Below, in pieces: positions 12,793-34,134 of a DNA stretch of 64,000 nt. Source of the stretch: Halovenus carboxidivorans. GTDB taxonomy: Archaea; Halobacteriota; Halobacteria; Halobacteriales; Haloarculaceae. The stretch lies in contig NZ_WUUT01000003.1 in the NCBI RefSeq assembly GCF_009831575.1, forward strand, positions 308,748 to 372,747, read 5' to 3'. The notes beneath the pieces are model-generated. The model did not search any database and was not told the DNA's origin. It saw only the letters and a program-made list of their open reading frames with translations. Position numbers and translations under genes: made by a program. Every line of letters starts with the position of its first letter. Positions within the stretch are counted from its first letter, which is position 1.

Positions 12793-12866
12793 GCCAGGGG
12801 AGCTTGGGCGGTTCAAGCACCCGACTTGTAATCGGGAGTTCGGGGGTTCAAATCCCTCCCCTGGCT
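12793..12866 (+). tRNA. tRNA-Thr (anticodon TGT)
   Basis: A complete 74-nt cloverleaf. Acceptor arms are GCCAGGG (12793-12799) and CCCTGGC (12859-12865), the D stem GCTT/AAGC, the anticodon stem CCCGA/TCGGG around loop CTTGTAA with TGT at 12827-12829 (reads ACA), and the T arm GGGGG-TTCAAAT-CCCTC. There is no intron and no encoded CCA. Confidence 0.95.
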
Positions 12867-32583: not shown

Positions 32584-33300
32584 ATGACGACTGTCGTCGT
32601 GCTCGCCGACCCGCCCGTGCCAGCGTGTGTCCCGTCACTGCTCCCCGACAGCCACTCCGCCGAGCGGGAGGTCGCCCTGTACCGCGCGATGCTCGCCGAC
32701 GTCTGCGCGACGATCCAACACGGCGAGGCAGAACTGCTGGTCAACTACCCCGATCCCGAAACGGTTCCCGACGGTGTCGACCCCGAGACGGCGATCCGGG
32801 ACCTCCTCGACGCCGAACTGACCGACCCCGACGCCGTCCGCTACGAGGTGCAGGCCGGCTCCGACGAAGCCAGCAAGATTGGCAACGCGCTGACGCACCT
32901 GCTCGAATCCGAGGAGCGACCGACCGTCGCCTTCGCCCGTCCGACCGCGCTCTTTCTGCGCCGCGAACACATCGGCGCGACGGCGATGCAACTGCGGACC
33001 AGCGACGTCGTCGTCGGTCCGTCGACCGAGGGCCGCGTCTCCTTTGCGGCGTTCGCGGAGTCGATCGATTTCGCGGACTGCCTCGCCACGCCGGCCGTCG
33101 AGACGCTCGTCGAACGCGCCGACGCGGCCGGTCTCGACGCTTCGTTCCTCCCGGTGACGCCGCTGTGGCAACGGCCCGACGACCGCCAGACAGCCGTCTC
33201 CCTGCTCCGCGCTCGCCTGCGCGCCGGGGCGCTGGTCCCGGACCGGACGGCCGAACTGATCGCCGACTGGGATCTGCCCGCCGGCCCGGACGACGGCTGA
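32584..33300 (+). CDS. DUF2064 (GT-A-like nucleotidyl/glycosyltransferase superfamily) protein
   Basis: A 238-residue cytosolic protein of the DUF2064 group, a glycosyltransferase-A-like fold: N-terminal VVVLADPPVPACV, a middle segment IGNALTHLLESEERPTVAFA, and RTSDVVVGPSTEGRVSFAAF in the place of the usual product-binding loop. The aspartate pair of active GT-A enzymes is not obvious, so catalysis is doubtful. It starts 60 nt from the divergent small membrane protein. Confidence 0.78.
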   Translation: MTTVVVLADPPVPACVPSLLPDSHSAEREVALYRAMLADVCATIQHGEAELLVNYPDPETVPDGVDPETAIRDLLDAELTDPDAVRYEVQAGSDEASKIGNALTHLLESEERPTVAFARPTALFLRREHIGATAMQLRTSDVVVGPSTEGRVSFAAFAESIDFADCLATPAVETLVERADAAGLDASFLPVTPLWQRPDDRQTAVSLLRARLRAGALVPDRTAELIADWDLPAGPDDG

Positions 33301-33367
33301 ACCGCCACTCACCGGGCAGCCGACACAACGGAAGGAATTTTACCGAGGGCGATATACCCCGGAATGA

Positions 33368-33451
33368 GGTGGGGTGGCAGAGCGGCCTATTGCGCCTGCC
33401 TTGAGAGCAGGTGTCCGAGAGGACTCCTGGGTTCAAATCCCAGCCCCACCG
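33368..33451 (+). tRNA. tRNA-Ser (anticodon TGA)
   Basis: An 84-nt class II tRNA. Acceptor GGTGGGG (33368-33374) pairs with CCCCACC (33444-33450), discriminator G33451. The anticodon stem CCTGC/GCAGG holds loop CTTGAGA with TGA at 33402-33404 (reads UCA), a long variable arm follows, and the T arm is CTGGG-TTCAAAT-CCCAG. The last 22 nt are repeated at 33561-33582. Confidence 0.95.
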
Positions 33452-33582
33452 CTTGTGAGTGAGCGGACGCGAACGAACAGCGGTAAGGCCGGTATTTGGA
33501 GTAGACGAGTCACAGCCCGCGCAGCCGAGCGAAGCGAGGCGAGCAGGACTGCCTCGGCGTGGTTCAGATCCCAGCCCCACCG
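33430..33582. repeat. Direct repeat of the tRNA-Ser 3' end (att-like)
   Basis: The 22 nt GGTTCAAATCCCAGCCCCAC plus CG at 33430-33451 recur with a single A-to-G change at 33561-33582, 131 bp downstream. Duplication of a tRNA 3' end is the mark of tRNA-targeted integration (attL/attR). The 109 bp in between contains no gene but an inverted repeat GCCGAG/CTCGGC (33524-33558). It may be the scar of a lost element. Confidence 0.65.
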
Positions 33583-33624
33583 TCGCACGCGGCTTTTCGT
33601 CTGACCGTCGGATATCCGCGACGG

Positions 33625-34134
33625 CTACCTTCCGACCCGATCCCGAATGTTCGCCACCAGCGACTCGAAGTTGTTCATATCCTCGACCTCCTCGATTTCG
33701 TCGCCGACGCCGAACGATCCCGGCTCGTCGACCCGGGCACAGATTCCGCCCTTCCCGTTCGCCAGCGCCCGCAACAGCCCGTCCTGGCCGGTAACTCGCT
33801 CCAGATACCGACAGGGCGGCCGCGCTCGTGTCCCCTCAAGGCGCGCGTCACCGAGCGTGAAGCGGTGGTTCAACAGATCGTGTACGTCGCCGCCGCGGAC
33901 GACGACGTTTCGTCGGTGTTGACCGTCCAGCACGTCCAGTTCGGAGCGTTCACTGATCGCCGCCAGCGCCTCGGCCTGGACGAACGTGATCTGACAGACG
34001 TCGTACGGCGAGTAGTGGCCCCGTCCCGTGCAGTACCGATCACCGGCCAACCCGCCGTCGACGGCCCGGATCGAGTCGTGGGACTGCATCGGCTCACCGG
34101 CGCCGTCCGCGGTGTAGATCGCTTCGACACGCAT
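33625..34134 (-). CDS. MOSC-domain protein
   Basis: A 169-residue single-domain MOSC protein (molybdenum cofactor sulfurase C-terminal fold). Visible family features are the glycine-rich [18 protein letters not shown], the block [10 protein letters not shown], and the conserved cysteine in [14 protein letters not shown] proteins bind Mo cofactor or ferry sulfur; stand-alone members can detoxify N-hydroxylated bases. The partner cannot be told here, although a molybdopterin oxidoreductase lies 6 kb away. Confidence 0.87.

Follow-up and report, generated by a model that had tools for sequence, protein, structure and literature searches.

Introduction

The 3′ ends of tRNA genes are classic entry doors for islands and proviruses. 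Short repeats at such ends are also known, as in the 178-bp repeats of E. coli tyrT/tyrV, associated with the RtT RNA (Rfam RF00391) and with rttR/tpr. The attC site of integrons is laid out as a hairpin-bearing, mismatched, folded structure. In archaeal integrative elements, as described in parts of PMC8371274, the att repeat spans the T-loop to the 3′ end and the tRNA is kept intact, and a Haloquadratum prophage covered in sections of PMC3119063 has a 22-nt tRNA duplication with an adjacent integrase. The same paper deals with two kinds of short gene-less haloarchaeal repeats that sit in palindromes, the SMRs (~110 bp) and the PATEs. Neither Halobacteria or haloarchaea nor tRNA is mentioned in the main text of a paper on archaeal integrons (PMC9668308). 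We found no description of haloarchaeal tRNA-end units in the literature searched, with subscription journals mostly outside its scope, and do not claim that they are absent from print.

Here we examine a 22-nt duplication downstream of a tRNA-Ser(TGA) gene of Halovenus carboxidivorans. It is one unit of a haloarchaeal tRNA-end repeat family and probably no one-off scar.

Results and discussion

The tRNA-Ser(TGA) locus

The window, by which we mean the whole 64,000-nt stretch of DNA analysed, carries the tRNA-Ser(TGA) gene on its + strand (33368..33452; 54.9 bits with the Rfam tRNA model), and this gene is the anchor of the unit. The first 22-nt copy lies within the gene and runs from T-loop to 3′ end (33430..33451, +; GGTTCAAATCCCAGCCCCACCG), and a repeat search placed the second, which forms the distal unit boundary, at 33561..33582 (+; GGTTCAGATCCCAGCCCCACCG). 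The copies differ by one mismatch and lie 131 apart with 109 bp between them. The duplication had been reported with these properties in a first-pass annotation of the sequence and is real, given that only 1.1e-6 matches with ≤1 mismatch would be expected by chance in 64 kb on both strands at the window's base composition and that these two were the only ones observed. Its description as an att-like tRNA 3′ end also stands, since the repeat spans the T-loop to the 3′ end, a known att type according to parts of PMC8371274 and PMC3119063, and since similar copies lie at the borders of a stretch of Halovenus salina DNA that carries an integrase. As in an att duplication, a direct repeat of the 3′ part of the gene bounds the element and the tRNA is intact.

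Immediately 3′ of the tRNA end is a hairpin-1 segment (33452..33489, +), weak here and placed by comparison with other units. It is followed by an inverted T-arm (33491..33500, +; GGTATTTGGA), which is predicted to base-pair with the second copy; this arm was not detected by our octamer test and looks decayed. The conserved core hairpin, CAGCCCGCGCAG ... GAGCAGGA (33504..33558, +), was matched by our model R1 with 55.4 bits (E 3.1e-15). Over the unit, only the tRNA exceeded the Rfam gathering score. The window carries this single unit and no array, and its other tRNA gene, tRNA-Thr(TGT) at 12793-12866, has no second 3′-end copy within the 64 kb.

The absence of a nearby integrase, already remarked upon in that annotation, was confirmed: of ten ORFs examined from 28.4 to 39.0 kb of the window, none encodes one. 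Those around the unit include a FecCD transporter, a FAD protein, a lipoyl-synthase-like radical SAM protein, MOSC, MCP and alcohol dehydrogenase, and four of the ten have no Pfam match. The 109-bp spacer is itself too short for an integrase gene.

Anatomy of the units

The spacer proved to be a structured, widespread element that had been overlooked in the first-pass annotation, and pieces of it also lie behind other tRNA genes (18 genus genomes searched). A shared plan could be read at Ser, Lys, Ala, Leu and Arg tRNA loci of relatives, in the order tRNA end, hairpin 1, inverted T-arm, second hairpin (of R1 type in the window), and direct T-arm with acceptor strand. Each unit starts directly after the last tRNA base and finishes by repeating the local tRNA, in direct orientation, from T-loop to 3′ end; the bounding repeat is this tRNA end, 20-24 nt long. 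Among 73 distinct units from arrays of four genomes, chosen by excluding intervals <85 or >230 nt and another interval containing an entire tRNA, the median period was 120 nt (IQR 112-131) and the inverted octamer had a median position of 45 nt (IQR 43-51). Within 1.45 kb, every parsed unit was shorter than 230 nt. Identity to the tRNA ends 0-4 nt left of T54 in all 65 of the 65 units examined, which gives the copies a sharp T-loop edge.

The inverted octamer is the exact local T-loop in 30 of the 73 units (label shuffles: mean 17, maximum 25, with 0/500 reaching the observed value) and matches it at ≥7/8 in 58. The T-stem part of the inverted arm scored 2.2 of 4 against 1.48 when shuffled, a value reached by 0/1000 shuffles. 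By a stricter 13-nt arm test the local tRNA was strictly the best match in only 8/73 units, because T-loops resemble one another; in large part, the inverted arm follows the general T-loop consensus. An inverted acceptor-strand copy was also considered and rejected as weak, with 52/1000 shuffles reaching the observed value. Several core types occur in the second hairpin, an R1-type core being present in 11/73 units and a reduced form of it in 17/73.

Two loci with other arrangements were noted. The tRNA-Lys(CTT) array of genome G022 (L211, 2158-3980) contains at least five T-arm copies, and one interval of ~1.2 kb in the tRNA-Lys array of this genome holds a secreted-looking 201-aa ORF; the observation also covers a locus of genome G023 (L267). 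A tRNA-Ala unit (L033, G010:C93) has no distal tRNA copy, its sequence switching right after the core to the start of an ORF, possibly another insertion.

Comparison with described systems

The E. coli tyrT repeats offer the following parallel. In E. coli K-12, tRNA-Tyr is followed by three downstream copies of 19/20 of its last nucleotides with a 178-bp period, and the tyrT locus gave four RtT (RF00391) matches of 133-138 bits. As in the haloarchaeal arrays, the units are in tandem and each is closed by a repeat of the 3′ end of its local tRNA. By eye, each E. coli unit also holds a 10-nt inverted tRNA-end piece, GGGGAAGGAT, before a GC-rich hairpin sequence, although this arm reaches only 6/8 in the automatic octamer test. 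The sequences differ: the E. coli tyrT locus gave no R1 match, and RtT (RF00391) was absent among Rfam matches up to E 10 in 33200-33900 of the window. In addition, the tyrT repeats belong to one tRNA family, whereas in the two censused genomes about a fifth to half of all tRNA genes carry the haloarchaeal units. By analogy, the haloarchaeal units might work like this known E. coli curiosity, though they occupy many tRNA genes and have a conserved hairpin of their own.

With the att sites of tyrosine integrases the units share the repeat from T-loop to 3′ end and the intact tRNA; unlike integrase-bearing elements, they are ~120 bp long, appear to contain no integrase or other gene, and possess a conserved hairpin as well as an inverted arm. 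Their likeness to integron cassette arrays lies in the anchoring at one site, the hairpin site that ends each unit, the mismatched fold and the greater change near the anchor, whereas they differ from integrons (attI/attC) in appearing nearly gene-free and in having tRNA as the boundary sequence. SMRs and PATEs, as presented in sections of PMC3119063, are likewise short haloarchaeal repeats without a gene, but SMRs make no target duplication and target IS605-type palindromes according to those sections, while the units described here end in a 20-24 nt tRNA-end copy.

Census and turnover among relatives

For a census of whole genomes, tRNA genes were located with RF00005 and the last 20 nt of each were sought within 1.2 kb of the gene itself, allowing ≤2 mismatches. 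In the window's genome, 11 downstream copies of a gene's own 3′ end were spread over 8/41 tRNA genes; a relative, G023, had 30 such copies at 19/42. Neither genome had such copies upstream within 1.2 kb, nor reversed tRNA ends within the same distance, and the ends of other tRNA genes were encountered once in the window's genome and three times in G023. Coverage of G018 and G022 was partial (30/43 and 30/45 tRNA genes, respectively). Among genus genomes in which the 22-mer of the window was found at ≤3 mismatches, 3/11 have at least two copies; the second copy is therefore not part of a gene conserved in all relatives, a possibility that the earlier reading of the locus had raised against itself.

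Eight pairs of loci from close relatives were aligned. Four of them, at tRNA-Leu GAG, tRNA-Ser TGA (twice) and tRNA-Arg CCG, differ by a whole extra unit adjoining the tRNA, with the breakpoints in the copies. The extra unit is distal in the Ser GGA pair, the break lies at the inverted arm in the Lys TTT pair, the Met pair has equal unit numbers and a changed hairpin 1, and a Ser TGA pair (G089/G091) was not alignable. Across three congeneric genomes, copies were present in 21 tRNA groups, with few units in common. Hairpin 1 and the core exchange independently, an identical core being found with different forms of hairpin 1. Simple duplication cannot have produced the new units, since both of their hairpins are often unlike those of the units next to them. 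Movement of units between the tRNA genes of one genome was also considered and set aside, there being a slight excess only (core similarity ≥0.8 in 9/528 same-genome pairs against 11/1319 other-genome pairs).

Covariation and distribution of the core hairpin

The core pattern CAGCCCGCRCAG-N(0-30)-GAGCAGGA occurs in 80/146 family genomes, and the reversed control pattern gave 2 matches. At its R/Y position pair, 82 distinct core matches comprise 59 G-C, 22 A-T and 1 A-C. In an alignment of 50 cores, 95.7% of cells pair, and 89 cells changed on both sides compared with 24±3.7 when shuffled and ≤18 when slid, a score favoured by the kinship of the sequences and by a structure drawn from those same sequences. 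Predicted folds beat shuffles for 4/6 tested copies (z −3.0 to −4.4); the exceptions are the window copy (z −0.94) and one further copy.

R1 was found in 55/57 near-complete family genomes (E≤0.001), with up to 23 matches per genome, and in 97/116 sampled genomes representing 39/45 genera of the window's order (E≤1e-6). In a sample of the phylum it was present in 19/147 genomes, all 19 within this order. No Rfam model for the R1 core was found.

Three plasmid records were included, two of which, Natrialbaceae megaplasmids, carry a unit with R1 matches and the third none. Units were also observed behind tRNA or tRNA-like sequences in Natrinema and Natronorubrum megaplasmids (L704, 6016-6067; L705, 4457-4500). 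Phage matches were limited to tRNA regions of Pseudomonas phages. A viral source was considered and rejected: the core pattern occurs in 25 viral stretches, which we take to be chance matches because none is beside a tRNA or has tRNA-derived arms among the matches listed. Two T-arm patterns gave unspecific matches among those listed.

Proposed mechanism and alternatives

At the tRNA-Phe gene of Halovenus salina, copies of the tRNA end lie 0.3, 6.9 and 80 kb downstream. The 80-kb copy ends a unit with an R1 core, and the adjoining 419-aa ORF has a Phage_integrase domain (PF00589, E 3.4e-8). By eye, 14/15 nt of the tRNA-Phe end also precede this distal unit. Because of this stretch and of the Haloquadratum prophage reported in sections of PMC3119063, the unit boundaries look like sites of tRNA integrases, and we infer from such sequence likeness that an integrase may move the units.

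Our preferred reading, to which we give an even chance, is that the units are att-bounded, non-autonomous elements whose movement or loss comes about through recombination at the tRNA 3′ end. Tyrosine integrases that target tRNA 3′ ends would use the copies as recombination (att) sites, which would allow units to enter beside the tRNA and to leave via recombination between copies. The units would be non-autonomous, with the integrase supplied in trans by larger elements. Against this reading, a double-stranded circle of 90-140 bp is hard to form for reasons of DNA mechanics, and no integrase lies near the window's unit; the other four of the eight locus pairs, the 13-nt arm test and the R1 cores away from tRNA genes also count against it. 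The paired inverted and direct arms, together with the mismatched core, may help recognition as a folded strand. The unit of the window may have been resident long enough for changes to arise in its inverted arm and second copy. A further point against the att reading is that gains and losses of whole units would likewise follow from homologous recombination between the 20-nt copies. Taken further, the arrays could amount to an integron-like system, in which tRNA-templated cassettes with single-strand-folded end sites are captured beside the tRNA by a tyrosine recombinase, the site being the tRNA 3′ end itself, so that many tRNA genes acquire gene-poor arrays; the folded end site would then consist of the inverted T-arm, the mismatched core and the direct T-arm. 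We regard this extension as quite unlikely.

The first-pass annotation had left the choice between a scar after loss of an element and a minimal non-autonomous element. Whole-unit presence and absence between relatives fits the latter, which we favour. Large tRNA-bounded stretches with the same kind of copies do exist, in Halovenus salina and, according to sections of PMC3119063, as Haloquadratum prophages, and the loss of such an integrated element could leave a scar; however, the plan, length and core of the spacer recur in units beside different tRNA genes across many genomes, whereas scars would hold random, unrelated remnants. This origin is accordingly very improbable for the window unit. 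It is also conceivable that no dedicated enzyme is involved and that units come and go by replication slippage, hairpin template switching and homologous recombination between copies, the template switching also writing the inverted arms. T-arm copies of alternating orientation, direct and inverted, each separated from the next by a hairpin, do resemble fold-back copying, hairpin 1 and the core are swapped independently, and when the joined copy and unit are folded the inverted octamer pairs downstream in 34/58 and upstream in 22/58 units. We nonetheless consider such an enzyme-free origin on the unlikely side, given that new units are so often unlike their neighbours in both hairpins and that the invariant mismatches and internal loops of the core are not expected after palindrome correction.

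The strong structural covariation of the core, the location of the units on the same strand as the tRNA and the annotation of the parallel E. coli RtT as an RNA would suit another explanation, namely that the units are putative functional 3′ trailer RNAs with a processing, stability or regulatory role, like RtT of E. coli tyrT, and are kept by selection. Against it stand the fast turnover of the arrays, with so few units common among the tRNA groups of the congeneric genomes, the many tRNA genes without units, and the fold of the window unit. A wobble-substitution test for RNA versus DNA strand gave 30 against 24. All in all, a trailer RNA seems to us quite unlikely. The units offer a tractable comparative system for the duplication and reshuffling of tRNA att sites. 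Across an archaeal order, the doors used by islands and proviruses carry stacks of short, fast-changing, structured units, and an att-like duplication at a haloarchaeal tRNA gene need not be the scar of a lost island.

R1 cores and a second dispersed repeat

From 60 chosen R1 matches in family genomes, a loose motif allowed 56 loci to be parsed, 37 of which have an intron-free tRNA within 300 nt upstream. Allowing for introns added a tRNA-Arg(TCT) at L293, and L267 and L299 have a further tRNA-end copy upstream. The remaining R1 cores lie away from tRNA genes, many of them nested within a second repeat, GGACTGAAAGGGGC ... GGGGCTTT.

This second dispersed haloarchaeal repeat, GGACT(G/C)AAAGGG(G)C ... 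GGGGCTTT, forms a long stem that often hosts other hairpin modules including the R1 core. It was seen at L063 (7393, − strand), L139 (1749-1874), L315, L286 and others, with 54 loose matches in the loci examined. R1 cores were also observed between two genes without a tRNA at L035, L190, L192, L205, L222 and L228, with similar flanks in several genera. At L035, the neighbouring genes resemble rpl7ae and rps28e when their translations are read by eye, and the core is on the opposite strand.
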